DNA of 64,000 nucleotides, taken from Duncaniella muris (GTDB lineage Bacteria; Bacteroidota; Bacteroidia; Bacteroidales; Muribaculaceae). Location: contig NZ_PUEC01000008.1 in the NCBI RefSeq assembly GCF_003024805.1, positions 1-64,000 on the forward strand, read 5' to 3'. The notes beneath the pieces are model-generated. The model made no database searches. It saw only the letters and a list, made by a program, of their open reading frames with translations, and had not been told where the DNA came from. The stretch's first letter is position 1. Every line of letters begins with the position of its first letter. This document shows, piece after piece, positions 7,543-30,934 of the stretch. Position numbers and translations under genes: made by a program.

Positions 7543-9756
7543 TCATTCGGCTGTCAGCAGCAGGACTCTCGAACCCCATTCGGTGCGTTTGTCCTTGTCG
7601 ACATTATAGCCTACCGGCATTTCCAAGCCATTGTCCATCAGATAACGGCCGGAAAAAGTTTTGCCTTCATATCGGAGCGGTTTATTGTCTATACGGTTTA
7701 TCTCGCGCACCTTATAATTCCGGTCGGGATCCAGGCCGGCCATCTTCACGCGCGGAAGCTGCTGATTGCGGAATGCCTCGGTCTTCCACCAGAAATAGAC
7801 GGCCTTGTCTTTTTCAGGAGTGGCATACAGAAGAGAGGCCACACCAAGGCCCTCGTAAGGCGACTGCAGGCGATAGATATCACCCTGCTGCACAACAGGA
7901 CGTATCTCCTTGTACTCGGCTATCGCCTTTCGACACTGCTCCCTTTCAGCCTCTGACATGTCGCGCGGCTGTATCTCCATGCCCAGGCGCCCGCTCATAG
8001 CCACGTCAATGCGGTATTTCAGCGGCATAGAGCGATAAGTCTGATGGTTGGGAGTGGCACTGATATGCGAAGCCATAGCAACGGCAGGGAAAAAGTAGGA
8101 AGCACCCCACTGCATGTAGACTCTCTGAAGGGCATCGGTGTTGTCGCTAACCCAGAATTCGTCAAACCAGGGGAGCACACCGTAGTTTGCACGACCGCCA
8201 CCGCTTGCACATGCCTGTATGGTCAGGTCGGGATACTTGGCGCGGATGCGGTCAAGCACTTTGGCCAGACCTTTGTGATAGTCTATGTAGAGATGGCTCT
8301 GATTATCGGCTGAAAGATATTGCGAACCGTGGCTGCGGACCGACATGTTGGCGTCCCATTTGATATAGTCGATTTCAGGATATTTCGTCATCAGAGTGTC
8401 GACTACCTCAAACACCAGATCCTGAACCTTAGGGTTTGAGAGGTCAAGCACAAGCTGGGTGCCACCGCGTCCATAGACGTGATCGCGGTGGCCGGGCTTG
8501 ATCACGTATTCGGGATGCTTCTCATAAAGTTCGCTTTTGGAGTTAGTCATCTCAGGCTCTATCCATATGCCGAACTTTATGCCCTTGCTTTTGGCCGCAT
8601 CAATCAACCCCTGTATTCCGTGGGGCAGCTTGCGGGTGTCAACAATCCAGTCGCCGAGGCCCTGCGTGGCGTTGTCGCGCGGATGCTTCACGCCAAACCA
8701 GCCATCGTCCATGACGAAGAGTTCGCCTCCCATCGAAGCTATATCAGCCATCATATTTTCCATCCCGGTTTCTTCGACATCGAAATAGACACCTTCCCAG
8801 CTGTTTAGCAAGATCTTGCGGAGTTCATTGCCGTGGGCAATCCTGTGGTTACGGCCCCAGCGGTGGAAATGGCGGCTCACTCCGCTCATGCCCTCGTTGC
8901 TGTAAGTAAAGGCCAGCGGCGGGGTTACGAACACCTCGTCTTTCTTCAGATGATACTCCGAATTGTCCTCATTAATGCCGGCGAAAAAACGATGATAATC
9001 AGTCTCGTCAGTGTCAATTACCAGCTTGTAGTTTCCGCTGTAGCAAAGGGCGGCCCCGATGACGCGGCCGTCATTCTCACGCGGCTTTCCGTCAAGCGAA
9101 AGCATCAGCTCGCCGTGGGCAGTATGGGAGTTGCGCACACCGTCGCGGTTTTTGATCACACGCATTCCGTGTGTCAGGCGCGAGCAGTCAACCCGGCTTT
9201 CATTGCCCCAGCTTCCGTAGAGTTGCGAGAGCCAGACATCGCCATAGCGCACAGGCAGACATCCTGAAGCGAAACGGTCGAGGGTCACAATGCCTTTCTC
9301 CTGATGAGAAATTTCGGTCCATGTCTCGATGACATCTTCAGCCGGATATGTACGATAGTTGACACTGACAGTGAAAGGATAATGGGAATCCCGAAGCTTC
9401 ACGGTTGTGATTTCCGAGTCGCCGTCCCTGCGGGCCGACGTACTTTCCACTTTAAGATCAAGCGTCATGTTTCCATCGGCATGAACCGCACTCAGAGCTG
9501 CTTCACGTGTAGTGTCAAGCCCATAGGCGGGATATGCGTCGGCCACGGGGCATCCGGCCGCCCTGAGATTGTCAGCGTCAGAGTCGGAGATACGGCCGCC
9601 GTAATAGAGAAATTTCAGATTTTTCCCTTTTTCGGCATCAAGCACCATTGAGGTCGACGGAGTGTCAAGTTTCAGCACTTTGGCATATGCGCTCCACGGA
9701 AGTCCTGCAAGCAGGACAGCAGCGAGTGAGACGCGCCCTATCATTCTGTGTTTCAT
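7543..9756 (-). CDS. secreted GH36 alpha-galactosidase
   Basis: A 737-residue protein with a signal peptide (about 1-25). The beta-sandwich N-terminal domain is followed by the GH36 barrel (about 290-640) with MDDGWFG, then the nucleophile Asp468 in KWDANMS, SGGGRANYG and the acid/base Asp538 in VSDNTDALQR. It removes terminal alpha-galactose. It is the last gene of the run glpA-B-C-T-HAD and starts 39 bp after the HAD gene in the same direction, which suggests co-transcription, although TAAACAATCTCTTA in the gap resembles a recurrent element. Placing an alpha-galactosidase with glycerol-3-phosphate genes is odd unless the substrate is an alpha-galactosylated glycerol phosphate or glycolipid. 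Raffinose-type sugars remain an alternative. Confidence 0.9.
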   Translation of the reverse strand: MKHRMIGRVSLAAVLLAGLPWSAYAKVLKLDTPSTSMVLDAEKGKNLKFLYYGGRISDSDADNLRAAGCPVADAYPAYGLDTTREAALSAVHADGNMTLDLKVESTSARRDGDSEITTVKLRDSHYPFTVSVNYRTYPAEDVIETWTEISHQEKGIVTLDRFASGCLPVRYGDVWLSQLYGSWGNESRVDCSRLTHGMRVIKNRDGVRNSHTAHGELMLSLDGKPRENDGRVIGAALCYSGNYKLVIDTDETDYHRFFAGINEDNSEYHLKKDEVFVTPPLAFTYSNEGMSGVSRHFHRWGRNHRIAHGNELRKILLNSWEGVYFDVEETGMENMMADIASMGGELFVMDDGWFGVKHPRDNATQGLGDWIVDTRKLPHGIQGLIDAAKSKGIKFGIWIEPEMTNSKSELYEKHPEYVIKPGHRDHVYGRGGTQLVLDLSNPKVQDLVFEVVDTLMTKYPEIDYIKWDANMSVRSHGSQYLSADNQSHLYIDYHKGLAKVLDRIRAKYPDLTIQACASGGGRANYGVLPWFDEFWVSDNTDALQRVYMQWGASYFFPAVAMASHISATPNHQTYRSMPLKYRIDVAMSGRLGMEIQPRDMSEAEREQCRKAIAEYKEIRPVVQQGDIYRLQSPYEGLGVASLLYATPEKDKAVYFWWKTEAFRNQQLPRVKMAGLDPDRNYKVREINRIDNKPLRYEGKTFSGRYLMDNGLEMPVGYNVDKDKRTEWGSRVLLLTAE

Positions 9757-9795
9757 ATGGCAGATGTTAAGAGATTGTTTAATTACAAGTGTTAC

Positions 9796-10689
9796 TTAGA
9801 GACTATTTCTGGATTCGAGCAGAAGTTCGCCGAATTCGAGAATGCTTTTTGCCGTAATGTCGGGCATAGGATCGGATGCAAGCGCAGTTTCAAGTGTTGT
9901 CTCGCCTGAAAGCACCAGCACTCCGAGCGCTCCGGCGTTACGGGCCATAGCCACATCTGTGTAGATGCGGTCGCCACACATGGCAATCTCGTCGGCGGCA
10001 AAGCCGTAACGGTGACGTATGCCTGAAAGCATGTCGGGGTTGGGCTTCCCGATCACAATATCCGGCAGCCTCCCGGTGGCATATTCGATCGCGCTGCAAA
10101 GCGAGCCGCAGTCCACAAGCACTGTCGGTTGATCTGTGGGGCAGACTCGGTCAGGATTCGTGGCTATATAGGGAACGCCTTGCGAGGCGAGCCATGCGGC
10201 ATGACAGAGGCGCGGATATTCCAGAGTGGTATCAAAGGCCACCACCAGGGCTTCAGGCAGCACTCCGGTCTCCACCGGGGCGATCTCGAAGCCTGCGGCC
10301 TCAAACTCGGCAAGCATACTGGGGGTGCCGAGTGCGAAGATCTTTCTGACGCCGGGCATATTGGCTTTGAGATAGTCAATGGTGGCGACTGCCGTGGTGT
10401 ACATTTTCTCCGGTCCGGTCTTGATTCCGAGCCGTTCGAGTTTGACGAGATAGTCGGCGATGCTGCGGGTAGGATTGTTGGTCAGAAACGAATATCCTAT
10501 GCCGTTGGCTTCGAGCATTTCAAGAAACGGACGTGTGAAGGGGAAGAGCGTGGCGCCCATATAGATGGTGCCGTCCATGTCAAGAGCCACATGGCGCACC
10601 TTGCGGCATGCCTCCATCAGGCGCTCGCGGTCAAGCGGCGAGATCCAGGTGGCGCATCCGGCAATCAGACTGTCATTATTTGCTTTCAT
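9796..10689 (-). CDS. HAD-superfamily phosphatase, NagD/PGP type
   Basis: A 297-residue HAD phosphatase of the NagD-like class with a C2 cap. Motifs: LDMDGTIYMG (nucleophile and general acid aspartates), FLTNNPTRS (motif II), IGKPNPDM with the motif III lysine, and CGDRIYTDVAMA (Mg-binding aspartates). The start at 10689 is preceded by AGGAG and overlaps the glpT stop by 14 bp (ATGAAAGCAAATAA), pointing to translational coupling. A longer frame from 10761 would run deep into glpT and is unlikely. The family includes phosphatases acting on glycerol-3-phosphate and 2-phosphoglycolate. With glpT next door, hydrolysis of glycerol-3-phosphate or overflow control of its pool is a reasonable guess. 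Substrate not proven. Confidence 0.82.
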   Translation of the reverse strand: MKANNDSLIAGCATWISPLDRERLMEACRKVRHVALDMDGTIYMGATLFPFTRPFLEMLEANGIGYSFLTNNPTRSIADYLVKLERLGIKTGPEKMYTTAVATIDYLKANMPGVRKIFALGTPSMLAEFEAAGFEIAPVETGVLPEALVVAFDTTLEYPRLCHAAWLASQGVPYIATNPDRVCPTDQPTVLVDCGSLCSAIEYATGRLPDIVIGKPNPDMLSGIRHRYGFAADEIAMCGDRIYTDVAMARNAGALGVLVLSGETTLETALASDPMPDITAKSILEFGELLLESRNSL

Positions 10690-12211
10690 GGCTTTCTCCT
10701 TCGTGAAGACCGTCAATAGCCTCCTGTTCTTCATAAAATCTGTTGCTGCGCGCATAGCCATCGCGGGGAGCCATCCACATTGAGATGAATGTCAGCGCTC
10801 CGAGAATGCCTACGGCGATAATTATATAGAACACCATGTTCCATCCCCAGCGGTCGGCCACGATGCCGATACCGATTGCAGAGACGAAAGATCCGAAATA
10901 ACCGAATATTCCGGCCAGGCCGTTGGCTGTAGCCGAAGCCTCTTTAGTAGCATGGTTGGCAGAGGCTATGCCTATCAGAGCCTGGGGGCCATAGATAAAG
11001 AATCCGGCCATAGCAAGGAATAGCGTGGAGACTATTATCGGCAGTCCGGGGAACATAATGAAGATCCCCATGAAGACAACAGCTAAAGCCATGCACACAA
11101 AACACATCCGGTGGGCCTTGCCATGAAAAATATGGTCTGTGGCCCATCCGGCGAAAATGGTGCCTATTATAGCGAAGATTTCAAAAGCGCCCACTGACCA
11201 GGCTGCATCCTCGATTGACATGTTGCGCGCTTCGGTCAGGAATTTAGGGCCCCAGTCGAGAATGCCCATACGCATCACATAGACAAAGATGTTGGCTATG
11301 CAGAGAGTCCATATCCACCGGTTGGTCCACACCATAGCTTTGAGGAATTTACCGCGCGAGGGAGTCTTGCCGCCCTTGGCATCTGACTTTCCGGTATGGG
11401 TGCCGGGCAATTCAGGGAGGCCTACAGAGCGAGGATCGTCACGAAGGCCGACATAGAGCCACAAAGCTCCGCAGACAGCCAGACAGGCCGGAAGCCAGAA
11501 ACACCATTTCCAGGCATCCCAGTGGGAAGCATAGCTGAGAATGGTCTTCATATGCTCGCTGTCAGAAGGATCGAGATTGAGGTTTGCCGCAATGGTCTGT
11601 ATTATCTCAGGATTTCCGCTAAGGTCACGACCCATAGTGCCCATGATATAGCCGCAGACCACCACTGCCGCGGCAGCGCCGATAGAGTGAGAGGTGTTCC
11701 AGATAGACATCTTTGTGGCCAGTTGCGAGGGGTGGATCCATGACGGGAGCAGACGTGCGCACGGCGGATAGCCCACTCCCTGGAAATACTGGTTGAGGAC
11801 TATGGTCACTGCCATCAGCATGATCAGCATGTTGATGAAATCAGGTCCGCTGTCCACGCCTGTGATCCAAGAGCTGATGTTGACGCCGAAGCCGAACATG
11901 AAGTTGGAGGCGGCACAAAGCAGCAGGCCGACGGCCATGATGACGCGGGCGCTGAAACGGTCGACAATGAAGCCGTTGACAAAACGCGAAAGGCCGTAGA
12001 TCAGCGATCCGACACCGATCACAATTCCGAAACTTGTGTTTGAGATGCCGTATTGCGCCGTTAGGCCGGGCATGGCGATCGAGAAATTCTTTCTGACAAA
12101 ATAATAGATCGCATAGCCGATCATGGAGACAACTATGGTGCGCATCTGCCATGACTTGAACTGCTTGACCACTTCCGGTTTCCATCCGGCATAAATGTTT
12201 TCAGTCGACAT
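10676..12211 (-). CDS. glpT: sn-glycerol-3-phosphate transporter, MFS organophosphate antiporter
   Basis: A 511-residue major facilitator protein with about 12 membrane helices and the organophosphate:phosphate antiporter features: MIGYAIYYFVRKNFSIAMPGL in the first helix and loop, and GVGYPPCARLLPSWIHPSQLATKMSIWNTSHSIGA in two consecutive parts. The conserved arginine of the first helix region (YFVRKN) would contact the phosphate. It imports glycerol-3-phosphate in exchange for phosphate. It lies 29 bp after glpC in the same direction, so uptake and oxidation are co-expressed. UhpT or PgtP-type specificity is possible by sequence class, but the glpABC context favours GlpT. The C-terminal extension after the last helix is charged and short. 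Confidence 0.9.
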   Translation of the reverse strand: MSTENIYAGWKPEVVKQFKSWQMRTIVVSMIGYAIYYFVRKNFSIAMPGLTAQYGISNTSFGIVIGVGSLIYGLSRFVNGFIVDRFSARVIMAVGLLLCAASNFMFGFGVNISSWITGVDSGPDFINMLIMLMAVTIVLNQYFQGVGYPPCARLLPSWIHPSQLATKMSIWNTSHSIGAAAAVVVCGYIMGTMGRDLSGNPEIIQTIAANLNLDPSDSEHMKTILSYASHWDAWKWCFWLPACLAVCGALWLYVGLRDDPRSVGLPELPGTHTGKSDAKGGKTPSRGKFLKAMVWTNRWIWTLCIANIFVYVMRMGILDWGPKFLTEARNMSIEDAAWSVGAFEIFAIIGTIFAGWATDHIFHGKAHRMCFVCMALAVVFMGIFIMFPGLPIIVSTLFLAMAGFFIYGPQALIGIASANHATKEASATANGLAGIFGYFGSFVSAIGIGIVADRWGWNMVFYIIIAVGILGALTFISMWMAPRDGYARSNRFYEEQEAIDGLHEGESHESK

Positions 12212-12240
12212 ATCTGATTTGGTATTAAGAGGCTATATTT

Positions 12241-13488
12241 TCATTTCACACCGTTGGCTTTCATCGTCGCTTCCACGTCAAGGGCTTCGGCGAGGATAGT
12301 CACCGGATTTTCCACCTTAACCCCGGTGCTCATCTCGATCTGCATCTTGCAGGTCTCGCAATCGGTGGCCACAAGGTCGACACCCGCTTCAATGATGCGG
12401 TCAAAGAGCTCTCGCCCTATGGCCTGTGAATAGGCGTAGTTCTCTTTTTTGAATCCATAGGTTCCGGCTATTCCGCAACACGACGATTCAAGCGGCACAA
12501 GAGTGAGGCCGGGAATGCTCCTGAGCAGCGACACGGAATGAATAGCCCATCCGAGTTTCTGCATATGACAGGGGGTGTGATAGGTGATGCGCCGACGATA
12601 GTCTTTCCGGAACACGAGTTTCACCCGTCCTTCATCCACAAGACGGTTCAGGAAGGCGGTGGCAAGCAGGATGCTGTCACGCACGTCGGCATTGTCCACA
12701 TCGAGCAGGTGAGGATACTCGTCACGAATGGTGAACACACAGGTCGAGCTGGTGGCTATGACCTGCTGACCCCGGCTGACGGCCTTCCGGATCGACCCGA
12801 TGTTAAGACGGGCATCGCGCCGGGCTTCGTCAACCATCTTGTTGGCGATCTTGGCCACTCCGCAGCAGCGCTCCTTCTCCAGCAGGCTGACTCCGTAGCC
12901 GATGGCATTCATCAGCTTGACAAAGTCGCGGCCGAGCGCCGGATTGTTGTAGTTGACGAAACAGCCGTGGAAATATGACAGCCGGCGTGGAAAACTCGAC
13001 TGGTCAGGAGCCTCGCGGCGCATCCACGACTCGAATGTCTCTGAAGAGTAGGTAGGAAAATTTCTGTGGTGGTCGATGCCGAGCGTAAAGTCCATGACGC
13101 TTTTGGTCAGCGGCATCCTGAGAGCCGTATTGACAATGAATGACATCGAGGTCGCCATCTTGCCCATGAAATCGGTGCTCGCAAGCATGCGGTCACGCAG
13201 TGAAACCTGACGCTTGTCATATCTGATGCGCGCGGTCTGGATGATGTCACCGATCTTTACGTTTGACGGACAGGCCACCTCACAGCGCTTGCAGTTGAGA
13301 CAATATTTCAACGCAGCATCATAAAACTCTGGATTTTTCAGTCTGTAACGTTCTCCGTCAGGCCCGGCCTGCTTCGGCCCCGGATAGTCGGGATTGACGG
13401 CGAGCACCGGGCAGTAGACAGTGCAGATCGTACACTTTATGCACTGTTCGAGATTGTTCGGACTGATATTTTTTATCTGGTATTCCAT
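12241..13488 (-). CDS. glpC: anaerobic glycerol-3-phosphate dehydrogenase subunit C
   Basis: A 415-residue iron-sulfur protein. Two 4Fe-4S clusters lie near the N-terminus (CIKCTICTVYCP at about residue 17 and CLNCKRCEVACP at about residue 63), followed by two cysteine-rich CCG domains (LEKERCCGVAK and LESSCCGIAGTYG). This is the GlpC architecture: the subunit anchors GlpAB to the membrane and passes electrons to menaquinone. It follows glpB by 20 bp in the same operon. Length and motifs match the family, with no missing cysteine ligand that I can see. The homologous lactate-utilisation protein LutA has a similar domain, but the glpAB neighbours decide the call. Confidence 0.93.
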   Translation of the reverse strand: MEYQIKNISPNNLEQCIKCTICTVYCPVLAVNPDYPGPKQAGPDGERYRLKNPEFYDAALKYCLNCKRCEVACPSNVKIGDIIQTARIRYDKRQVSLRDRMLASTDFMGKMATSMSFIVNTALRMPLTKSVMDFTLGIDHHRNFPTYSSETFESWMRREAPDQSSFPRRLSYFHGCFVNYNNPALGRDFVKLMNAIGYGVSLLEKERCCGVAKIANKMVDEARRDARLNIGSIRKAVSRGQQVIATSSTCVFTIRDEYPHLLDVDNADVRDSILLATAFLNRLVDEGRVKLVFRKDYRRRITYHTPCHMQKLGWAIHSVSLLRSIPGLTLVPLESSCCGIAGTYGFKKENYAYSQAIGRELFDRIIEAGVDLVATDCETCKMQIEMSTGVKVENPVTILAEALDVEATMKANGVK

Positions 13489-13508
13489 CGTAAAAATTGG
13501 TTTTACTG

Positions 13509-14780
13509 TTAGGCTTGGGCTTCTGAATTGTCTGCCCGGCCGGCTGCAATTATGTTTCGTGCCACCTGGAGAGCCGAAAGTATGGCGACCCCTCCACCCG
13601 ATCCTTCGCGTATCGGGTTCGATCCGCCGAGAATAGCACCCACAGCATAGACATTTCCGGCAGGAACACCGTTGAACATCACATGGAAGTCACGGTCTGT
13701 AGTCACCCCGAACTGCATGTAGGGCTGATTGTCGAAAATGCTTTTTCCGCACCAGAGACTGCGGTCTGACGGAGCCTCGACATCAGCTCCGAGCACCGGT
13801 TCATAGATGCGGTCAGGCTCAGCGACAAGCCCCTGGCTGAAAAAGCTCCCGGTAGCGAGAATGAAATTGTCGGCCTGCAGGCTCATGCCGCTGAGGTTAG
13901 CGGTTTCTATCTCTTTAAGGGCAGGGCCTTCCATGTAACCGCGGGTCACGTTGTCGCCAAGGAAATAAGTGCCTCCGAGCTGTTCGAAATAACGGCGGAG
14001 ACGTATCTGCGAGCGCATCCCGCAGACCGACATAGGCAACACCGGCACACACAGCAACTTGGGTATCACCATAGAGCGCAACTCTCTGACCGGCTGCTCG
14101 GAATCAATCCCGACCACTGCTGGCATGAATACCACATCGGAGTTTCCGGCCGCACGGTTGATCTCGGAGGCAAGCATCTCAAGCACCGGGCCTTTCAGCA
14201 CTTTGGCTATAGCCGCAGCGCGCATTTCGGAGGAGTTTCTGCGCAGGCGCTCTATGGCCGGAAGCGTTATTTCGGCATAATCGCAGGGCAGATTGTGTTT
14301 CTTCAGTCCGTCGGCAAGAAAACCGGGAAGGAAATCAAGAAAGCCCTTGAAATTTATGATCGTAGCCTTGCGCCATCCGGTTTCCGACGGATTCTCGCAT
14401 GTGGCGTAGTCATCCATCGTAAGCCAGGAAGGCTCACACAGTCCAAGCGGCGTAAGGCGGAAATGATTTTTTGAAGAGTCGCCGATGAATGTCAGCCCGG
14501 CATCCGCAAAGATCTGTTTGGCATCATCGGCAAGAGCCGGGATCGACTCCGCTCCAATCTTGGAATAAGGATGTCCGGCGGGCAGAGTTCCTATAGCCTC
14601 AAGCGGATGAAGCAGCTCCTTGCCATCGGCATGTCCAAGCAGCCCGAAAGAGCCGGAATGGAAGTGCAGAGCACTCTGCCCGGAAGATATGATTGCGACT
14701 TTGCTGCCTGACCGTGCGAGTTTCACTCCGGCCATGAGGCCGCTGAGACCTCCTCCTATTATAATGGTATCGTATTTCAT
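13509..14780 (-). CDS. glpB: anaerobic glycerol-3-phosphate dehydrogenase subunit B
   Basis: A 423-residue flavoprotein. The N-terminal dinucleotide-binding motif IIGGGLSGLMAGVKLARSG starts at residue 7, and the middle and C-terminal parts carry the GlpB pattern (FLATGSFFSQGL-type FAD contact, seen as FILATGSFFSQG, and IREGSGGGVAILSA near the end). GlpB forms the soluble catalytic dimer with GlpA and relays electrons to GlpC. It lies 12 bp after glpA and 20 bp before glpC. The order glpA-B-C is the same as in Escherichia coli. The gene looks intact. Confidence 0.92.
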   Translation of the reverse strand: MKYDTIIIGGGLSGLMAGVKLARSGSKVAIISSGQSALHFHSGSFGLLGHADGKELLHPLEAIGTLPAGHPYSKIGAESIPALADDAKQIFADAGLTFIGDSSKNHFRLTPLGLCEPSWLTMDDYATCENPSETGWRKATIINFKGFLDFLPGFLADGLKKHNLPCDYAEITLPAIERLRRNSSEMRAAAIAKVLKGPVLEMLASEINRAAGNSDVVFMPAVVGIDSEQPVRELRSMVIPKLLCVPVLPMSVCGMRSQIRLRRYFEQLGGTYFLGDNVTRGYMEGPALKEIETANLSGMSLQADNFILATGSFFSQGLVAEPDRIYEPVLGADVEAPSDRSLWCGKSIFDNQPYMQFGVTTDRDFHVMFNGVPAGNVYAVGAILGGSNPIREGSGGGVAILSALQVARNIIAAGRADNSEAQA

Positions 14781-14792: not shown

Positions 14793-16463
14793 TTATCGGT
14801 CGGCATTTTCGTTTGTCACACACTCGCAGGCTTCTTCATGAGGCTGAAGTCCGCAGACTCCTCTGTAGAGCCAGGCCATGAACTGGGCCTCGACAAGAGT
14901 CTGCCCCCATGCCACCGGCATCATTCCTTTCCAGCGCTCGTTGATGAAACTTGCGAGGTCTTCGAGCGCCGCCGGCGGATTTCCGGTCTCGTCTCTCAGT
15001 ATGGCAGCCGCTCGGCAGGCACACAATCCGCCCTGGCAGGTGCCCATGCCCATACGGGTGCGGCGGCGGAGATTGATCAGGCTGTCGGCATGGAGTTTCT
15101 TAATGGCATATTTGATCTCCCCTACCGACACCTGTTCGCATTCGCAGACAAGAGCATCATCCTCATCGGCATTATAGCTTATTTCTGCGCTCATGGTGCC
15201 GTGGCGCCCCTGGGCGGCTTTCTGGTCTGTGCTCAGTTCGATTATATGTGATTTGCGCTTTCGGACTCCGGACTCCGGCTCCGGAGTTTCCGATCCCGGA
15301 AGTGGGATCTCGGCCGTGCGACACAAGCGACCTTCTATTCCAAGTTTGCGGCAGGCCATGTCGGAGGCCCATTCCGCCATCAGGCGGTAGGTCATGAGCT
15401 TGCCTCCAGAAATAGTGATCATGCCTTCGACTCCGTCGCGCACGGCATGGTCCATGCAGACTATGCCACGGCTGATGCTGCGGCCCGACGGATCATCGTC
15501 AGACGCTATCAGAGGTCTCACTCCGGCATAGGCGCGGAGAATTCGCGTATAGGCCAGACAGGGGGCAATCTTTATGCCCTCGCGCAGAAGCACATCTACC
15601 TCTTCGCCTGTGACATCCATTCTGTCCACCTGATCAATCGGAATCCGGCTCGAAGTCGTGCCGATGAGCGAAATGGTGTCACCCGGCACGAGGATATCCG
15701 CATCAGCAGGCTTGCGGCAACGGTTGATGACCACGTTGTTGACTCTGTGGCCGAATATCAGCAGGGCGCCTTTGGCCGGAAACATGTTCACCTTTATGCC
15801 GGCCATCGAGCATATACGCTGCCCCCATATGCCTCCGGCGTTGATCACAAGCGAGGAGCGGACCTTGAATTTCTGACCGGTGCGCTGTTCGCGCAGCTCC
15901 ACTCCGCTGACACGCCCCGACTCCATAAGCAGATCCGTGACCTCATGATATGTCAGAATATCCGCTCCGTGGTTACGCGCGTCCATGACATTGGCCGTAG
16001 TAAGCCGGAATGGGTCGATGGCACCGTCAGGCACTCTGACCGCACCTATTATATCTTTGTTGACCGCAGGCTCCATTGCTATGGCTATGGCCGGATCTAT
16101 GACCTCGGCGTTGATGCCGGCCTGCAGGCATGATTCCACAAATTTCTTCTGATAGCCCAGATCATCCTCCGGGAGCGTGACAAACAGGCCTCCGGTTTCT
16201 TCCACACAGTGACGCGCTATACGCCGCAGAATCATATTCTCCTTTATGCACTCGCTGGCCGATTCCTGATCGGTGACGGCATAACGGGCTCCGCTGTGAA
16301 GCAGCCCGTGGTTGCGGCCGGTAGCGCCGGCTGTAAAGTCAAAGCGTTCTACCAGCAATACAGAAAGACCGCGCATAGCACAGTCGCGGGCTGTTCCGGC
16401 ACCGGTAGCGCCGGCTCCGATCACTATTACGTCATAGTGCTCTTTGCAATGGTTCATGTTCAT
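14793..16463 (-). CDS. glpA: anaerobic glycerol-3-phosphate dehydrogenase subunit A
   Basis: A 556-residue FAD-dependent enzyme oxidising sn-glycerol-3-phosphate to dihydroxyacetone phosphate. The Rossmann motif VIVIGAGATGAGTARDCAMRG starts near residue 12, and TGRNHGLLHSGARYAV is the GlpA/GlpD substrate-FAD signature. The C-terminal part carries a BFD-like [2Fe-2S] domain with CECEQV and GTCQGGLCACR (about residues 440-490), which marks GlpA rather than GlpD. It is the first gene of the minus operon, downstream of a well-formed promoter and a ladder of TTTCG half-sites, and divergent from glpR. The ATG at 16457 is an alternative start. Confidence 0.93.
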   Translation of the reverse strand: MNMNHCKEHYDVIVIGAGATGAGTARDCAMRGLSVLLVERFDFTAGATGRNHGLLHSGARYAVTDQESASECIKENMILRRIARHCVEETGGLFVTLPEDDLGYQKKFVESCLQAGINAEVIDPAIAIAMEPAVNKDIIGAVRVPDGAIDPFRLTTANVMDARNHGADILTYHEVTDLLMESGRVSGVELREQRTGQKFKVRSSLVINAGGIWGQRICSMAGIKVNMFPAKGALLIFGHRVNNVVINRCRKPADADILVPGDTISLIGTTSSRIPIDQVDRMDVTGEEVDVLLREGIKIAPCLAYTRILRAYAGVRPLIASDDDPSGRSISRGIVCMDHAVRDGVEGMITISGGKLMTYRLMAEWASDMACRKLGIEGRLCRTAEIPLPGSETPEPESGVRKRKSHIIELSTDQKAAQGRHGTMSAEISYNADEDDALVCECEQVSVGEIKYAIKKLHADSLINLRRRTRMGMGTCQGGLCACRAAAILRDETGNPPAALEDLASFINERWKGMMPVAWGQTLVEAQFMAWLYRGVCGLQPHEEACECVTNENADR

Positions 16464-16553: not shown

Positions 16554-16556
16554 CAA

Positions 16557-23687: not shown

Positions 23688-23715
23688 AAATTGGTAGATA
23701 AAAAACTGACGAACT

Positions 23716-25368
23716 ATGAAATTTAACTTCAAACATATAGCTCTGGCACTGCTCGGAGGCGCCACTCTCTTCTCCTGCGACCTTGACGAGAAATTCTACT
23801 CCAGCGTGACCCCTGACACATTCATCACCTGTCCGGAGAACACCTACGCCATTCTCTGCCGCCCCTTCACCCACTGGAAATGGTATCTCGGCGCCGAACG
23901 CTGGTATCTCCAGGAACTGACCACCGACGAGATGACCTGCCCGACACGCGGCAACGACTTCTATAACAACGGCGAGTACATCCGCCTGCAGGAACACACC
24001 TGGACCGGCGATGACCGCCATGTCAAAAACGTGTGGGACGGAACCATGAGCGCCATCGCCCGTACTCTCGAAGCCAAAGAAGACCTCTCTGGTGTCAACT
24101 ACAACGCCATCGGCCTCTCTGACGAAATAAAGAAAGACCACATCAACCAGCTAAACGCCATCCTCGGATGGTACTACATGCGCGGTCTTGACTACTTCGG
24201 AGGTCTGCCGATTTTCCGCAGCAACAACGACGCTCCCTGCGCCCGCTCTACCGACAAGGAGACTTTTGAATTCTGCGAGGACCTTTTCAAGAACGCCATA
24301 CCCTCCATACTCCCGAAATCGAGCCTCGGAGAAGCCCAGGACGGCTATATCAAGAAAGCAGCAGCCGCAATGATGCTCGCCGAACTATACTTCAACGCCG
24401 AAGCCTACGGAGGAGGTGACCGCTATGCCGATTGTGCCGCAATCTGCGAAGACCTGATCAGAGGCGAATACGGCCCCTACGCCATTGACAATACCTGGTA
24501 CGGCCCCCACTGTTTCGACAACGACAAATCGACAGAAGCCGTCTGGTATGTGCCCTCACAGAACTCAAAGATGGAATTCAACTGGTATTACCGCTACTTC
24601 TACAACCACCAGGCCGACAAATACTTCAACTGCCCATTCCCGGCTTCGCGCTACAACGGATTCATCCTTTCTCCCTCACGCGAGAAAGAAGGCGGCCCGG
24701 TCATGGACTACAAGCTGGGCAAAAGCTACGAGAAATACAACGATGCCGACCTGCGCAAGAAACCCTACGTCTACCACGGCAACAAGGAGTATGAAGGAAT
24801 GTTCTGCGTAGGGCTGCAGAAGAACCCCTACACCGGCGAAGTGGCCATAGGCCAGAAAGACATGGCCGGAAAGCCTGTGGTCCTTGTGGACTACGTCAAT
24901 ATCACCGGCAACAGCAGCACCATGATGGACGGTTCGGAAGTCTCCGGAGTGCGTCTGGTCAAGATGCCCATCCCGAACATCGACGATAAGGATCTTCTCT
25001 GGAACCCCGACTATCCCTGCATGCGTTTCACCGAGGTCTACTACATGCTTGCCGAATGCAAATGGCGCGCAGGCGACAAAAAGGGTGCCGCTCAGCTCAT
25101 CAACGAAGTGCGCAAACGCAACTTCGCCAACGGCAACGACCCGGACCCCGTGACCGAAGCAAACCTTGATGTCTACCGCATGGCCGATGAATGGCAGATT
25201 GAATTCCTCGGTGAAGGCCGCCGCCGCACCGACCTCATCCGCCTCGGCCTCTACACCACAGAAAGCTGGTGGGCCCACAAGCCGACTGACGACACCAAGA
25301 AGCGTTTCCCGCTGCCCTCTGAGGCTATGGCTGGAAATCCCCTACTAAAGCAGAACCCCGGTTATTGA
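23716..25368 (+). CDS. susD: SusD-like substrate-binding lipoprotein
   Basis: A 550-residue RagB/SusD family lipoprotein (lipobox LFSC, cysteine near residue 21), with tetratricopeptide-type helices in the N-terminal half (NAILGWYYMRGLDYFGGLPIF; KKAAAAMMLAELYFNAEAYGG) and the conserved C-terminal pattern MRFTEVYYMLAECKWRAGDK and WQIEFLGEGRRRTDLIRLG. It covers SusC as a lid and binds the substrate. It lies 28 bp after susC. Aromatic residues are plentiful in loops, as expected for a binding site. Complete at both ends. Confidence 0.95.
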   Translation: MKFNFKHIALALLGGATLFSCDLDEKFYSSVTPDTFITCPENTYAILCRPFTHWKWYLGAERWYLQELTTDEMTCPTRGNDFYNNGEYIRLQEHTWTGDDRHVKNVWDGTMSAIARTLEAKEDLSGVNYNAIGLSDEIKKDHINQLNAILGWYYMRGLDYFGGLPIFRSNNDAPCARSTDKETFEFCEDLFKNAIPSILPKSSLGEAQDGYIKKAAAAMMLAELYFNAEAYGGGDRYADCAAICEDLIRGEYGPYAIDNTWYGPHCFDNDKSTEAVWYVPSQNSKMEFNWYYRYFYNHQADKYFNCPFPASRYNGFILSPSREKEGGPVMDYKLGKSYEKYNDADLRKKPYVYHGNKEYEGMFCVGLQKNPYTGEVAIGQKDMAGKPVVLVDYVNITGNSSTMMDGSEVSGVRLVKMPIPNIDDKDLLWNPDYPCMRFTEVYYMLAECKWRAGDKKGAAQLINEVRKRNFANGNDPDPVTEANLDVYRMADEWQIEFLGEGRRRTDLIRLGLYTTESWWAHKPTDDTKKRFPLPSEAMAGNPLLKQNPGY

Positions 25369-25434: not shown

Positions 25435-26973
25435 ATGAAACTTTTCAGATATATGGCCTCGGCGATGGTGGCAGTCAGCCTCCTCGCATCATGCTCCGAT
25501 GATGTTGTCGCCGAACGCCGCCCAGGAGCCGATTCGGATCCCCTTACCATCAAAGCACAGTTCGGCAAAAACCTCGTGGGCCGTGTGACGGTTGACGGAC
25601 AGCCCCGCCAGGGTGTGGTTGTCAGCGACGGCATCAATGTGATGACAACCGACGCCAACGGCGAATACCAGATGTACACCACAGGCCGCCAGCACGTGTT
25701 CATTTCCGTGCCTGCCGACTGCGAGCTCCCCACCCTGCTCGGCGACCCGAAGTTCTACAAGACCCTCGACTATTCCGACGCCGCGATCATCCAGCGCGAT
25801 TTCCGTCTGGTGTCAATCCCAAAGAAAACAGAATGGACCCTCTTCACTATGGCCGACCCGCAGATCGGCAACGAAAAAGACATCACTGATTTCGTGGGAA
25901 TGATTCCCAGAATGGCCGAATTCGCCTCCAGCCTGCCGTCAAACGTCTATGGCATCTCGCTCGGCGACATAGTCTGGAACAAGCCCGAATACTTCGACAC
26001 CTATGCGAAAGAGATGCGCAACATCCCCGTGCCGGTTTTCTCTGTGATAGGTAACCATGATCACAACGAAGGAATCAAAAACGACACCGAAAGTGATAAG
26101 GATTTCCGCGATGCCCTCGGCCCGACATACTACTCCGCTAATATCGGAGACTGCCACCTCGTAGTGCTCGACGACGTTTTCTACCGTGGTGTCAACGGCC
26201 GTAACGACTACACGGGCACCATCACCGAGGCCCAGCTCGAATGGCTTGAAAAGGATCTCAGCTATGTTGATCCGGACAAAGCCGTCATCATCGGCCTCCA
26301 CATACCCACCAAGCGCCGAAACAGCTCTACCCATGTCACCAACAACCAGGCTCTCTATGATCTGGTCAAGGACTTCAGGGAAGTGCAGATCCTCTCCGGC
26401 CACAGCCACAACCACTACACCACTACCATAGCCTCAAACATCACCGAGACGACTTTCGCAGCCGTGATGGGAGCCTACTGGTATCCGCTTTGCAACGATG
26501 GCTCGCCACGTGGCTACGGCGCTCTTGACTTCAAAGGCAATACCCTGGTCAACAAATACTTCATCGGCGACGGCTGTGACCGCGACTACCAGATGAAGCT
26601 TTACCACCCGGAAGACGCCGTGTTATGGAATCCCTCTAAGAATGCAGGAGATCCCTATGACAAGATCCTTGCCAACATCTTCTGCTGGCATGAAGACTGG
26701 ACTGTCGAAGTCAAGGAAGACGCAGGATCCTGGACAGTTCTGCCGGCGAGCGCCCGACTAATTCCCTCGCAGAACGGCGGAAAATGCTGGGACCCCGATG
26801 TGCGCAAATGTCTTGTTGACGGAGTCATCCCCGCAAACCACGGCGGATCAGCTCCTGAAAACAATAACGACCACATGTTCCTCTACACTCCGCAGCCAGG
26901 CTGGCAGAGCGTGAGCTTCCGCGCCACTGACAGCTTCGGCAACGTCTACACAGAGACCATTACCAACAACTAA
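25435..26973 (+). CDS. calcineurin-like phosphoesterase with N- and C-terminal accessory domains
   Basis: A 512-residue lipoprotein (LLASCS, cysteine near residue 20). The N-terminal domain (about 40-120) has the MetallophosN-type fold pattern (GRVTVDGQPRQGVVVSDG). The catalytic core carries the dimetal ligands ADPQIGN, SLGDIVW, VIGNHDHNE, IGLHIPT and SGHSHNH. The C-terminal part (about 380-510) resembles MetallophosC. It hydrolyses phosphate mono- or diesters at the surface or in the periplasm. It sits 66 bp after susD and before GH31 and the glycerophosphodiesterase. That pairing implies a phosphorylated glycan. It could cleave the polymer backbone or release terminal phosphate; its exact bond is unknown. 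Confidence 0.85.
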   Translation: MKLFRYMASAMVAVSLLASCSDDVVAERRPGADSDPLTIKAQFGKNLVGRVTVDGQPRQGVVVSDGINVMTTDANGEYQMYTTGRQHVFISVPADCELPTLLGDPKFYKTLDYSDAAIIQRDFRLVSIPKKTEWTLFTMADPQIGNEKDITDFVGMIPRMAEFASSLPSNVYGISLGDIVWNKPEYFDTYAKEMRNIPVPVFSVIGNHDHNEGIKNDTESDKDFRDALGPTYYSANIGDCHLVVLDDVFYRGVNGRNDYTGTITEAQLEWLEKDLSYVDPDKAVIIGLHIPTKRRNSSTHVTNNQALYDLVKDFREVQILSGHSHNHYTTTIASNITETTFAAVMGAYWYPLCNDGSPRGYGALDFKGNTLVNKYFIGDGCDRDYQMKLYHPEDAVLWNPSKNAGDPYDKILANIFCWHEDWTVEVKEDAGSWTVLPASARLIPSQNGGKCWDPDVRKCLVDGVIPANHGGSAPENNNDHMFLYTPQPGWQSVSFRATDSFGNVYTETITNN

Positions 26974-26991
26974 CCCTGACCTCAGCCAACA

Positions 26992-29244
26992 ATGCGAAAA
27001 GCCATAAAAAAATTCCTTTCATTAGCCTTGATGATGTCATCAGGGCTAATGGCCTTTGCCGACACTGCCGCAAGCAATCCGCTTGTGTTCGGCAACAACC
27101 GCCTCTCGATCATCACCCCGACGCTCCTGCGCCTGGAATATGCCACCGACGCCCGCTTCATTGATGCCCCGACCCTCTTTGCCTATGACCGCAGCAGCAT
27201 GCTCTCGCCCTCTGACATCTCTGTCCGCGAACTCGGCGACAACTGCTACGAGATCACCACTCCGGCTCTGAGAATCTGGTATAAGCATGACGGTTTCCCC
27301 TTCTCGACTTCGAATCTCCACGTGTTTTACACTCTTGACGGCAAAGAGAAGAAATTCACCAATCGCTTCCTCCCCAAAAACAATCTCGGAGGTCCGGTGG
27401 AGACTCTTGACCGTGTCACCAAGGAAATTCCGATGAATGACGGAATCCTGAGCAAGGACGGATGGTATATGATCGACGACGAACGCACCGACCTGCTCGT
27501 CAACGGATGGATCAGCCCGCGCGACACCGAATCGCACATCCAGGATCAGTATTGCTTCGTCTACGGCAACGATTACAAGGCCGCCCTCTCAAGCCTTGGC
27601 GCTATCAGCGGCAAGGTGCCGATGACCCGCAAATACATACACGGTGTCTGGTATTGCCGCTACTGGGACTATACCTCCGATGAATTCCTCGACATCATCC
27701 GCGGCTATGACAAAAATGACTTCCCGCTTGACAACATTGTGTTTGACATGGGATGGCACACCAACGACGCAACCGTCGGCACAGGCCACAACGGACATCT
27801 AAACTGGAACGGCTACACCTGGAACCGCGAACTCATTCCCGATCCGAAAGCTCTGATCGACTCCTGCCATGCCCGTGGCGTGACAGTCTCGCTCAACGAC
27901 CATCCGCATGACGGCATGCGCCCCCACGAGGAACACTATCCGGCATTCATCAAGGCTCTCGGTGTCACTGACGGAACCGTGCCTCTGTTCAACACAGCCG
28001 ACAGCAACTATATGGCCAAATTCTTTGACTATGCCCACCGCCCGAGCGAAGACATGGGCGTGGACTTCTGGTGGCTTGACTGGCAGCAGAACTATCTCTA
28101 CCCGCATGTGCGCGGCCATCACTCCACAACCCTCGCCTGGATCAACGAACTTTACTACCGCGATTCGCAGCGCAACGGCAAACGTGGTGCCGGTTACAGC
28201 CGATGGGCCGGATGGGGCGACCACCGTCACCCCATCCAGTTCTCCGGCGATGCCCAGGCCAACTGGGAGCTTCTCGCCTTCGAGGTTAAACTCACTGCTT
28301 GCAGCGGTCAGGGCGGATGCTACTACTGGGCACATGACATAGGCGGTTTCCGCGGTGACCCGAACCCGGAACTGACTGTCAGATGGACTCAGTTCGGCGC
28401 TCTGTCGGCTGCCCTGCGTGTCCATTCCACCAAAGACAAGCGCCTCGACCGACGCCCCTGGATCAGTGGCGACCGCGAGACAAAAGCTATGAGAAAGATG
28501 TACCACATGCGTTCCGAAATGATGCCCTACATCTATTCGAGCGTCTGGCAGACCCACAACACTATGGTGCCGCTCAACCGCTCGATGTTCATCGACTATG
28601 GCGACCAGAAGGAATCGTTCAGCCAGCCCCAGCAGTTCACTTTCGGCGACATCCTGCTTGCTGCTCCTATCTCGACACCCGGCAGCGGTGCAGACAAGAC
28701 TGCCGCGCAGAAAGTCTGGTTCCCCAAAGGCGAAGTCTGGTATGACTATTTCACCCACGAACGCAAAGACGGAGGCCAGACCGCACAGATCGAAAAGCCT
28801 CTTGAGGAATTCCCGCTCTATGTGAGAGGCGGATGGATACTCCCCATGCAGCCCTACACTCCGCGTCCGGCCACAGCCGCGCTCGAAACGCTCGTCATGC
28901 GCGTCTACCCCGCGGCCAAAGATGCCGACAACGTGTTCAGCCTCTATGAGGATGACGGCATATCGCTTGACTATCAGAAGGGCATCTATTCCACAACCGC
29001 GCTCCGCTACACCCAGAAAGGCAACCGCGCCTGCGTGACAGTGGCACCCGCCGAAGGTTCATATCCCGGCCAGACCATGCGCCGCTCCTACAGGCTGCAG
29101 CTTCCAGGACTGAAAGACGGTGCCAAGGTGACGGTCAACGGCAAAAAAGCCAAGGTTGAATATGACGAAGCCGCCGGATGCCCGGTGGTCAGAGTTGCCT
29201 CCACTCCTGTAAACAAACCCGTAACCATTGAGTATAATATATAA
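26992..29244 (+). CDS. GH31-family alpha-glycosidase
   Basis: A 750-residue secreted enzyme (signal peptide about 1-24). A beta-sandwich (about 30-210) precedes the GH31 barrel. The likely nucleophile is Asp363 in WWLDWQQN and the acid/base Asp420 in FSGDAQANWE; HDIGGFRGD follows and the C-terminal beta domains end the chain. GH31 includes alpha-glucosidases, alpha-xylosidases, alpha-galactosidases and alpha-N-acetylgalactosaminidases. WWLDWQQ is a variant of the usual motif, so the sugar released is uncertain. The stop overlaps the next start by one base. In this setting it would strip alpha-linked sugars from a glycerol-phosphate chain (inference). Confidence 0.88.
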   Translation: MRKAIKKFLSLALMMSSGLMAFADTAASNPLVFGNNRLSIITPTLLRLEYATDARFIDAPTLFAYDRSSMLSPSDISVRELGDNCYEITTPALRIWYKHDGFPFSTSNLHVFYTLDGKEKKFTNRFLPKNNLGGPVETLDRVTKEIPMNDGILSKDGWYMIDDERTDLLVNGWISPRDTESHIQDQYCFVYGNDYKAALSSLGAISGKVPMTRKYIHGVWYCRYWDYTSDEFLDIIRGYDKNDFPLDNIVFDMGWHTNDATVGTGHNGHLNWNGYTWNRELIPDPKALIDSCHARGVTVSLNDHPHDGMRPHEEHYPAFIKALGVTDGTVPLFNTADSNYMAKFFDYAHRPSEDMGVDFWWLDWQQNYLYPHVRGHHSTTLAWINELYYRDSQRNGKRGAGYSRWAGWGDHRHPIQFSGDAQANWELLAFEVKLTACSGQGGCYYWAHDIGGFRGDPNPELTVRWTQFGALSAALRVHSTKDKRLDRRPWISGDRETKAMRKMYHMRSEMMPYIYSSVWQTHNTMVPLNRSMFIDYGDQKESFSQPQQFTFGDILLAAPISTPGSGADKTAAQKVWFPKGEVWYDYFTHERKDGGQTAQIEKPLEEFPLYVRGGWILPMQPYTPRPATAALETLVMRVYPAAKDADNVFSLYEDDGISLDYQKGIYSTTALRYTQKGNRACVTVAPAEGSYPGQTMRRSYRLQLPGLKDGAKVTVNGKKAKVEYDEAAGCPVVRVASTPVNKPVTIEYNI

Positions 29245-30035
29245 TGTACAAAATGAAAATCTCACGTCTGCTTGCCGCCGCCGCTCTTCTTGTGGCGGCC
29301 GGCAGCATGGCGGCTGACACTCCGAAAGTAATCGCACACCGCGGCTACTGGAAAGCCGAAGGCTCGGCCCAGAATTCAATCCGCTCGATAGTCAAAGCCG
29401 ACTCGATCAACTGCTATGCATCGGAATTCGATGTATGGATGACGGCAGACAGCGTTCTTGTGGTCAACCATGATCCGGATATCAACGGAGTCCACATAGA
29501 ATCATCGCCGGCATCACGTGTGCTCGCCGAAAAACTCTCCAACGGAGAGCACGTCCCGACTCTCGAAGCCTATCTCGCCACAGCATCACACCTGCCATCA
29601 CGCATAGTCTGCGAGATGAAGCGCCACGACAGCCGCTCACACGAAAAAGCTGCCGTCAAAGCAATCCTGGCTCTGGTAAAGAAATACGGACTTCAGGACA
29701 AGGTCGACTACATAACCTTCTCAAGCGACGGCTTCAAAAATTTCATAAAATATGCACCGAAAGGCACAGGAGTCTACTATCTCGACGGCGACTACATGCC
29801 CGCCCAGATCAAACATATGGGAGGCACCGGCATCGACTATGCCATGAAAGTCATCAGAAAGCATCCGGAATGGATCAAGGAATGCCACGATCTCGGACTC
29901 CTTGTCAATGTCTGGACCGTAAACTCCGAAGCCGACATGAAATGGTGTATCGACCACAGTGTTGATTTCATTACCACCAATGAGCCCGAACGCCTGCAGT
30001 CGTTGCTGAAATCACGCGCGAAAAAACAAAAATGA
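29244..30035 (+). CDS. glycerophosphodiester phosphodiesterase
   Basis: A 263-residue GDPD-family protein with a signal peptide (about 1-24), so it works outside the cytoplasm. Catalytic pattern: IAHRGYW (His32), SEFDVW (Glu61 and Asp63, metal ligands), NHDPDI (His76) and CEMKRH. The family hydrolyses glycerophosphodiesters to sn-glycerol-3-phosphate and an alcohol. The usual E-N after HRG reads Q-N here (AQNSIRS), a small deviation. Its start is joined to the GH31 stop (TAATG) and its stop overlaps the next start (ATGA), so the three genes are translationally coupled. The product is the substrate of the GlpT and GlpABC encoded nearby. Confidence 0.9.
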   Translation: MYKMKISRLLAAAALLVAAGSMAADTPKVIAHRGYWKAEGSAQNSIRSIVKADSINCYASEFDVWMTADSVLVVNHDPDINGVHIESSPASRVLAEKLSNGEHVPTLEAYLATASHLPSRIVCEMKRHDSRSHEKAAVKAILALVKKYGLQDKVDYITFSSDGFKNFIKYAPKGTGVYYLDGDYMPAQIKHMGGTGIDYAMKVIRKHPEWIKECHDLGLLVNVWTVNSEADMKWCIDHSVDFITTNEPERLQSLLKSRAKKQK

Positions 30036-30934
30036 TAAAAATGCGCCTGCTCCCACGCCTGATCTCTTCCGCCGTCCTTCTGTGGCTTGCAGCGACAGCG
30101 GCGGCAAGTGACGGCAGGCCGGAAAAGCATGAGTTTGCCTATGCCGACACCGTGCGCACCTACAGCATTTATCTTCCTGAAGACCTGCGCCCGGATGCTC
30201 CGCTCGTGGTCTACACCCACGGCTATGGATCGGCCAGACGCTGGCTTAACGATCTGAACGCCACAGCCGAACGCCACGGATTTGCCGTATGCTACCCGGA
30301 CGGCTCTCCGGATTCCCGCGGAAAAGACGGCTGGAAAGTCGGCTATCCGCCGCAGGAGTCAATGAGCGTGGACGAAGCCGACTTTTTCCGCTGTCTGATA
30401 AACGAAGTCACCTCTCGCTTCCGGCTCAGCCGCGACAATGTGTTCATGGCCGGCATGTCAAACGGCGGCGACCTCTGCTATCAGCTTGCCTTCACAGCTC
30501 CGGAGCTTTTCAAAGCCTATGCCTCAGTAGCCGGTCTCGCCTTTGAATGGCTGTGCAAGAACCACAGACTGTCGCTCCCCGTCCATTTCCTTGAGATCCA
30601 CGGAAACGCCGACCGCACCTCGCGCTGGGAAGGTGACCTGACCAATGACGGAGGCTGGGGCTGCTACATAGCAGTGCCGGAAGCAATCGGCATGATCGCC
30701 GGCAATAACGGCTGCCGGAAAGTCACCACCGACTCTCTCTGCTCCATGCGCGATCCGCAGCGACTGATCACCCGCACTGTCCACTCCGGAGCTCCGTCTG
30801 GCCGCGAGGTGGTGCTCTATGAAATTCATGGAGGGAAACACTCCTGGGCCGACAAAGACTTGCCGACTGCCGAAATCATCTGGAACTTCTTCAGCAGCCG
30901 TCTGACCGGCGCCATGAAACCCGGTGGCCGATGA
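30032..30934 (+). CDS. secreted alpha/beta-hydrolase esterase, PHB-depolymerase/LpqC-like
   Basis: A 300-residue protein with a signal peptide (about 1-25). It shows the alpha/beta-hydrolase pattern of the poly(3-hydroxybutyrate) depolymerase-like esterases: VYTHGYGS (oxyanion region), Ser143 in AGMSNGGDLCYQLA, a late aspartate in EIHGNADRT and the histidine in EIHGGKHSW. Members include feruloyl and acetyl esterases. It overlaps the phosphodiesterase gene by 4 bp and ends the operon before a hairpin terminator. If the operon targets teichoic acid, removing D-alanyl or acyl esters would be a suitable task; that is inference. No PHB context exists here. Confidence 0.8.
   Translation: MIKMRLLPRLISSAVLLWLAATAAASDGRPEKHEFAYADTVRTYSIYLPEDLRPDAPLVVYTHGYGSARRWLNDLNATAERHGFAVCYPDGSPDSRGKDGWKVGYPPQESMSVDEADFFRCLINEVTSRFRLSRDNVFMAGMSNGGDLCYQLAFTAPELFKAYASVAGLAFEWLCKNHRLSLPVHFLEIHGNADRTSRWEGDLTNDGGWGCYIAVPEAIGMIAGNNGCRKVTTDSLCSMRDPQRLITRTVHSGAPSGREVVLYEIHGGKHSWADKDLPTAEIIWNFFSSRLTGAMKPGGR

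Follow-up and report, generated by a model that had tools for sequence, protein, structure and literature searches.

A candidate Sus-type regulon for glycerol-3-phosphate release and use in Duncaniella muris

We analyzed the first 64,000 nucleotides (forward strand) of contig NZ_PUEC01000008.1 from the Duncaniella muris assembly GCF_003024805.1, which comprises 3,267,414 bases in 79 contigs and is 100% complete. This stretch, hereafter referred to as the window, contains at positions 7543-30934 a locus in which a SusCD uptake system, phosphodiesterases and glycosidases adjoin the GlpABC genes of glycerol-3-phosphate oxidation. The locus very likely represents one regulon that yields and consumes glycerol-3-phosphate. 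Its substrate is probably an alpha-glycosylated glycerol-phosphate polymer, and wall teichoic acid is our tentative candidate for the specific compound. We infer the enzyme activities, the localisation of the proteins and the identity of the polymer.

Gene content and organization of the locus

The minus strand of the locus carries GH36-HAD-GlpT-GlpCBA and the plus strand GlpR-BAC1-BAC2-SusC-SusD-MPE-GH31-GDPD-esterase. Family scans found every gene that an earlier note on this DNA had named, each in its place. GlpA (14793-16463; 771.9 bits, cut-off 552.8), GlpB (13509-14780; 405.5 bits, cut-off 174.15) and GlpC (12241-13488; 569 bits, cut-off 279.9) all exceed their NCBIfam equivalog cut-offs and together represent the anaerobic glycerol-3-phosphate dehydrogenase GlpABC. 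The GlpA model, which leaves GpsA-type dehydrogenases uncovered, has a single match in the genome at an E-value of 0.001. The same strand encodes a GlpT-like transporter of the OPA family (10676-12211), a HAD-IIA phosphatase with an uncertain start codon (9796-10761; family scan) and an alpha-galactosidase-like GH36 enzyme (7543-9756; Pfam Melibiase, 363.8 bits). The DeoR-family regulator GlpR (16752-17552; DeoRC, 163.8 bits, and HTH_DeoR) had been placed with this divergent operon in the earlier note; it is present, but as a plus-strand gene that separates glpA from the polysaccharide utilization locus (PUL), outside the minus-strand operon.

The remaining plus-strand genes encode BAC1, a BACON protein with a C-terminal beta-sandwich domain and probably a surface binding lipoprotein (18094-19071), BAC2, a BACON-repeat protein and probable surface lipoprotein (19104-20705), a SusC/RagA TonB-dependent transporter (20721-23687; 713.2 bits, cut-off 368.25), a SusD-family lipoprotein (23716-25368; Pfam), a protein of the architecture MetallophosN-Metallophos-MetallophosC, here called MPE (25435-26973), a GH31 alpha-glycosidase (26992-29244), a glycerophosphodiester phosphodiesterase (GDPD, 29244-30035; 77 bits, cut-off 23.6) and an esterase resembling PHB depolymerases and feruloyl esterases (30032-30934; family scan). 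Adjacent susC and susD genes (20721-25368) with co-located carbohydrate-active enzymes (CAZymes; GH31 and GH36) are characteristic of a Sus-type PUL, and BAC1 and BAC2, which the earlier note had passed over, belong to the locus as well. A fold search with BAC1 returned a BACON domain and a beta-sandwich with weak matches only (a CBM16 entry, TMt 0.54), from which we derive no ligand. By eye rather than with a predictor, export signals were recognised at the N-termini of GH36, GH31, GDPD and the esterase, and lipoprotein signals with lipoboxes at those of BAC1, BAC2, SusD and MPE. The tight gene overlaps described earlier are real, as GH31 and GDPD share one base (29244) and GDPD and the esterase share four; the overlap of 86 bases between HAD and GlpT depends on the choice of the HAD start.

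A promoter element shared by both operons

A 14-base element, TACTTTTGTTGCGA, which was first spotted in the window and then tested genome-wide, precedes both glpA (16551-16564, minus strand) and BAC1 (17804-17817, plus strand), and these are its only two exact copies in the whole 3.27-Mb genome. We take it to resemble the Bacteroidota -7 box (TAnnTTTG) followed by a conserved TTGCGA. Across 42 hand-chosen genomes (22 with locus genes and 20 of the same genus without an MPE orthologue), 18 exact copies occurred in 11 genomes, and all 18 precede locus genes (glpA in 10 cases, BAC1 in 3, MPE in 3 and HAD in 2). The reversed control pattern matched once in this search, in the D. muris genome itself. 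No copy was found in the 20 genomes without an MPE orthologue; glpA is absent from these too, and they serve as background only. Since the glpA and BAC1 operons share an element that was found only before locus genes, we regard them as one regulon. In the genomes G132 and G163, one contig carries the element at an MPE-SusCD-GH31 locus and another carries it at glpA and also at HAD, which has its own copy, so that even unlinked loci share it. GlpR, which carries the HTH_DeoR and DeoRC domains and is kept next to glpA in relatives, is the putative binder of the element.

Conservation in Muribaculaceae

The locus was traced in 297 Muribaculaceae genomes, a sample from a larger group in which a limited number of candidates was scored per genome. 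MPE relatives at an E-value of 1e-20 occur in 71 of these genomes, and orthologues with about 480 bits or more (lowest 479.9) in 14. Among these 14, the GH36-HAD-GlpT-GlpCBA|GlpR block lies beside MPE and GDPD in G153, G024, G226, G105, G178 and G182, and a portion of it is seen where a contig of G287 ends. The flanking genes differ among most genera, which makes the edges of the block fairly sharp. Locus genes were found within 20 kb of each other far more often than uniform placement in a 2.7-Mb genome would predict: glpA and GDPD in 20 of 65 genomes with both genes (expected 1.4), glpA and MPE in 11 of 50 (1.5), GDPD and MPE in 14 of 43 (2.2), MPE and GH31 in 11 of 15 (0.9), GDPD and GH31 in 8 of 17 (0.4), and glpA and GH31 in 7 of 14 (0.3), all values being descriptive for related and fragmented genomes. 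The arrangement is beyond chance, because synteny is kept in several genera and because of the linkage of glpA to GDPD. Co-occurrence in other genomes, on which the earlier note had staked its reading, is thus observed in the relatives.

The locus also occurs in altered forms. At the MPE locus of G013 only MPE-GDPD-esterase is present and the glp operon lies on another contig, whereas in G132 and G163 the glp operon continues into GDPD, another MPE and a SusC with 27-31% identity to that of the window. In G092 (L140:12311-15170), genes for a radical-SAM/SPASM maturase-like protein and a sulfatase-family enzyme stand between GDPD and a SusC within the glp operon, which may reflect a substrate variant that is sulfated or another phosphodiester. 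A contig of a water-deer metagenome-assembled genome (MAG) that matches G287:C284 carries three GDPD genes in tandem (L072:7278-9631).

Re-assembly of the gene set in other genomes

A search of named genomes with an MPE profile returned 187 confirmed places, the best 80 of which form 78 loci. In 30 of the 78, MPE has a GDPD gene, a glpA/glpD-like gene or a GlpT-like gene of at least 27% identity nearby. Orthologues of SusD, SusC and the BACON proteins were detected in 22, 21 and 20 loci, respectively. The recurring sets are often built from non-orthologous parts, with canonical GlpT, other GDPDs, GlpD in place of GlpABC, and unrelated SusCD pairs. In Dysgonomonas sp. 25 (L076), BAC1-BAC2-SusC-SusD-MPE-GH31 follow a GlpT (658.6 bits, cut-off 632.55) and a different kind of GDPD; in Dysgonomonas BGC7 (L084), the MPE locus contains a GDPD and a GlpT (724.1 bits, TIGR00712); and Proteiniphilum (L081) has the order GlpR-BAC1-BAC2-SusC-SusD-MPE-GlpD-GlpT. 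L104, L107, L114, L124 and L128 each combine MPE with a glpA/glpD-like and a GlpT-like gene in one stretch as well; among the dehydrogenases of these five loci and L081, those of L081 and L107 were classified, both as GlpD-like. The GlpT-like neighbours in L092, L093, L095, L110 and L122 share only 22-24% identity, and the two that were classified fit TIGR00881 best rather than glpT. These five were not counted as GlpT among the 30 loci, in which L095 and L110 are included through their GDPD. That the set is rebuilt repeatedly from other parts argues strongly for a single path served by MPE, GDPD and glycerol-3-phosphate uptake.

Two further observations were made in these loci. A protein of about 322 residues is encoded beside glycerol-3-phosphate/MPE loci (L149:1375-2340, L081:16045-17013, L162:2702-3688 and L097:5682-6539); its copies are 47-75% identical to that of L149, which has no Pfam match at an E-value of 1e-5. 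The contig of L073, titled 'uncultured Bacilli bacterium', carries a Bacteroidota SusCD-MPE-GH31 set with identities near those of L074 (an Alistipes MAG), and its assignment to Bacilli is probably a binning error.

Predicted functions of the enzymes

MPE has no solved relative at an E-value of 0.001 (phmmer), but its catalytic fold resembles those of GpdQ and Rv0805 (Foldseek and VIA-align). Among 31 aligned sequences, the first residue of the motif D141-x-Q143 is invariant and the last almost invariant, a variation of the metal site at which many calcineurin-like enzymes have Asp-x-His. In 5 of 8 scanned proteins (L094, L097, L098, L104 and L107; the L119 protein being represented by its matched stretch and not by its whole frame) MetallophosN/C and GDPD domains are fused into one protein.

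The GDPD of the window contains a PF03009 domain, and across 13 aligned GDPDs the catalytic residues E61, D63, H76 and E124 are invariant and H32 and R33 nearly so. One of its solved relatives, 7ww4, is a 480-residue chain named beta-1,3(4)-glucanase, which it matches over residues 8-236.

All 12 solved chains that match GH36 at an E-value of 1e-20 are named alpha-galactosidases, one of them fused to a sucrose kinase, and in 6 relatives the glp operon likewise ends with GH36. The solved chains nearest to GH31 are 7wj9 and 7wjc (E 3.4e-101 for 7wj9). We take 7wj9 to be LlGH31_u1, which fits the residue numbers in the paper, and D341 to be its nucleophile. In a single pairwise alignment, D341 and D394 are kept as D363 and D420, and Gln343 is kept too; D394 is the catalytic Asp of LlGH31_u1, an alpha-1,3-glucosidase of Lactococcus lactis that is described as having no signal peptide, unlike the GH31 of the window as read by eye (PMC9061262). 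Loci of relatives encode the further exo-alpha-glycosidases GH89 and GH97. GH89 (NAGLU) adjoins the same module at L077:11471-13987 and L149:14575-16761, which suggests alpha-GlcNAc decorations on the substrates of these two species. No endo-glycanase was found in the locus of the window or among the neighbour proteins scanned, many neighbours being outside the scan. Among the loci examined, the esterase is found near locus genes elsewhere only in G153, G013 and G239, and its assignment as a D-alanyl esterase is a guess.

The solved relatives of the HAD-IIA protein include, among many others, the glycerol-3-phosphate phosphatases 7po7 and 4i9f. No glycerol kinase passed the cut-off in the D. 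muris genome (best score 118.8 bits, cut-off 590.35), whereas 10 of 14 control genomes passed. The glp operon is therefore probably not fed by glycerol through a kinase, and glycerol-3-phosphate probably arrives from outside as such.

Proposed pathway and substrate

The best overall explanation, which we hold to be reasonably likely, is a PUL-type locus for a polymer with a glycerol-phosphate backbone and alpha-linked sugars as side groups, which poly(glycosyl-glycerol-3-phosphate) wall teichoic acid of Gram-positive bacteria fits best. The combination of exo-alpha-glycosidases and phosphodiesterases in the locus suggests that the backbone is a phosphodiester chain and that its side groups are alpha-sugars. 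BAC1, BAC2 and SusD, as surface lipoproteins, would bind the polymer chain, which the surface lipoprotein MPE, as a phosphodiesterase of GpdQ-like fold, would cut; this role of MPE is suggested by its family, its fold and its fusion to GDPD. SusC would take in the pieces. In the periplasm, GH31 and GH36 would strip alpha-glucosyl and alpha-galactosyl groups and the esterase would take off acyl groups, which would expose the C2 hydroxyl needed by a GlpQ-type enzyme; GDPD would then free glycerol-3-phosphate. The OPA transporter would bring this compound into the cell, where GlpABC would convert it to dihydroxyacetone phosphate for carbon and electrons, while GlpR would control both operons via the shared promoter/operator element.

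The earlier note had proposed one regulon for the release, import and oxidation of glycerol-3-phosphate, which the co-occurrence data bear out, and an alpha-glycosylated phosphodiester backbone, which we likewise infer; the lipoteichoic acid that it had considered appears less likely. As first choice, lipoteichoic acid was set aside on stereochemical grounds. The glycerol phosphate oxidised by GlpABC is the sn-3 form. The GlpQ of Bacillus subtilis is described as cutting wall teichoic acid, which contains sn-glycerol-3-phosphate, and not lipoteichoic acid, which contains sn-glycerol-1-phosphate (PMC7086022). Both points favour wall over lipoteichoic acid. A teichoic-acid-like capsule of Gram-negative bacteria, as reported in PMC5974469, is a further possible substrate.

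Counter-evidence and alternative explanations

Several observations weigh against this reading or against parts of it. No GlpT, glpA/glpD or GDPD gene lies near MPE in 48 of the 78 loci, many of which are distant or truncated, and SusCD-MPE stands without nearby glp or GDPD genes in 5 of 6 Sphingobacterium loci and in both Segatella loci, as does SusCD-MPE-GH31 in G132, G163, G092 and G155 (a 6-kb contig). Conversely, SusCD, BAC1 and BAC2 are absent from the locus in G226, G105 and G178, so the set can exist without this SusCD, and on the short contig of G287 they are missing between GlpR and MPE. The exact 14-mer is absent from 11 of the 22 genomes with locus genes, including G024 and G182, which contain the whole linked locus except the esterase. 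Only a few sites show a clear inverted repeat at the element, and no general consensus emerges; the best repeat, with 10-base arms and no mismatch, belongs to a near-match of the element that precedes MPE in G226. The transporter, called GlpT in the earlier note, is indeed an OPA transporter, but it is only GlpT-like, with 272.3 bits in the glpT equivalog TIGR00712 (cut-off 632.55) and its best score, 295.2 bits, in the broader OPA subfamily TIGR00881, also under the cut-off (407.75).

The enzyme assignments meet similar reservations. Rv0805 is the first-ranked Foldseek match of MPE, ahead of GpdQ, and VIA-align does not separate the two (25.5 for GpdQ and 24.6 for Rv0805, in rows that cover mainly model residues 90-501). 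The similarity of the GDPD to GlpQ is distant (5t91, E 4e-5). The +1-subsite residues of LlGH31_u1 are not kept in GH31 in the same pairwise alignment (Tyr99 is replaced by Phe122, His427 falls in a gap and Ser455 is replaced by Thr480), so that an alpha-1,3 specificity does not follow from the similarity. A kojibiosyl teichoic acid from the literature lacks D-alanyl esters and gives no role to the esterase. Moreover, a GH2 gene stands in line with the glp operon of G013 (L162:1-1360, incomplete at the end of the stretch), and as GH2 is a family mostly of beta-glycosidases, the side groups may not all be alpha. Its product is 62% identical to a GH2 protein encoded in the window at 32920-35346, past the esterase and beyond a DNA-alkylation-repair gene and two tRNAs. 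The regulon may include this window GH2 as well; it is not preceded by an exact 14-mer.

The absence of SusCD in G226, G105 and G178 would be expected for small substrates, and the locus could accordingly scavenge the head groups of phospholipids, i.e., glycerophosphodiesters such as glycerophosphocholine, -ethanolamine and -inositol or deacylated phosphoglycolipids of the host, the diet or dead bacteria, with the glycosidases acting on glycosylated head groups. The GpdQ-like fold of MPE agrees with this, as does the acceptance by GlpQ of glycerophosphodiesters with several head groups, as described in PMC7086022. We nevertheless consider head-group scavenging unlikely, since it leaves unexplained both the exo-alpha-glycosidases in the regulon (GH31 and GH36, with GH89 and GH97 in relatives) and the genes for surface binding and uptake, which different genera retain at the frequencies given above for the 78 loci. 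The loci with SusCD-MPE-GH31 but no glp genes in several genomes could instead indicate that the locus mainly targets an alpha-glucan or a heteroglycan carrying phosphate (alpha-1,3-glucan and bacterial capsules are examples), from which MPE and GDPD would cut glycerol-phosphate as a mere side substituent. The closeness of GH31 to the alpha-1,3-glucosidase of PMC9061262, the name of the GDPD relative 7ww4 and the GH2 gene by the glp operon of G013 would suit such a glycan. It is quite improbable, however, in view of the missing endo-glycanase, within the scope of the scan given above, and of a full operon for glycerol-3-phosphate import and oxidation that shares the promoter element and is more in keeping with a main nutrient than with a minor substituent. 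An alpha-glucan locus that merely adjoins an unrelated glp operon was rejected, as the shared promoter element and the repeated re-assembly speak against it.

Very unlikely, in our assessment, is phosphate scavenging in the manner of the PusCD clusters of Flavobacterium, which are induced by phosphate starvation. An alkaline phosphatase (L117) and a Porin_O_P protein (L081) are encoded near relatives, but the regulator beside the locus is GlpR, GlpABC points to the use of carbon and electrons, and GlpT swaps glycerol-3-phosphate for phosphate, which leaves little net phosphate gain. The PUS clusters do pair SusCD-like genes with periplasmic phosphodiesterases, whereas PUSI and PUSII are described as lacking the glycosidases that the window locus contains (PMC8115612).

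Comparison with known systems and significance

The PusCD clusters are the nearest described system that we found. They resemble the window locus in joining a SusCD-like pair to secreted phosphodiesterases for organic phosphorus, but are described as induced by low phosphate and, in the case of PUSI and PUSII, contrasted with CAZyme-bearing PULs (PMC8115612). The window locus has the SusCD pair and the phosphodiesterases but also the CAZymes GH31 and GH36, and its GlpR, GlpT, GlpABC and exo-alpha-glycosidases point to the use of carbon. Its GDPD resembles the B. subtilis teichoicase GlpQ in the PF03009 domain and the His/Arg/Glu/Asp/His/Glu set and, like GlpQ as described, would release glycerol-3-phosphate and be blocked by glycosyl or alanyl groups at C2 (PMC7086022). 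When phosphate is limiting, GlpQ is reported to degrade wall teichoic acid of the cell that produces it (PMC7086022), whereas the GDPD of the window stands in an uptake locus with deglycosylating enzymes. GpdQ, the glycerophosphodiesterase of Enterobacter aerogenes (PDB 3d03), is also among the closest known systems through its fold. In the glp regulon of Escherichia coli, the secreted GDPD GlpQ frees glycerol-3-phosphate, GlpT imports it, GlpABC oxidises it and the DeoR-family repressor GlpR controls the genes. The window locus follows the same logic but is joined to Sus-type uptake and deglycosylating enzymes, with no glycerol kinase over the cut-off.

A search of open-licence PMC papers with narrow word combinations found no teichoic-acid PUL and no gut system feeding on teichoic acids, even though few polymers of Gram-positive cell walls are more abundant. 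Muribaculaceae bacterium Isolate-036 (Harlan) carries the whole locus except the esterase (L060), which makes the question directly testable. If our interpretation is true, MetallophosN/C proteins beside SusCD pairs would gain a probable function, and loci for phosphodiester backbones could be recognised by a rule: they would combine phosphodiesterases with exo-glycosidases but lack an endo-glycanase, and a glycerol-3-phosphate operon would share their promoter element. The Bacteroidota may then possess, as we tentatively propose, a distinct class of Sus-type loci for eating glycosylated wall teichoic acids from Gram-positive neighbours, in which GlpR takes the place of a glycan sensor, the surface and periplasmic enzymes MPE and GDPD (sometimes fused) do the depolymerising instead of endo-glycanases, interchangeable GH31, GH36, GH89 and GH97 enzymes match strain-specific decorations, and glycerol-3-phosphate is the source of carbon and electrons. 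Such loci would establish a nutritional link between Lactobacillus-like bacteria and Muribaculaceae.

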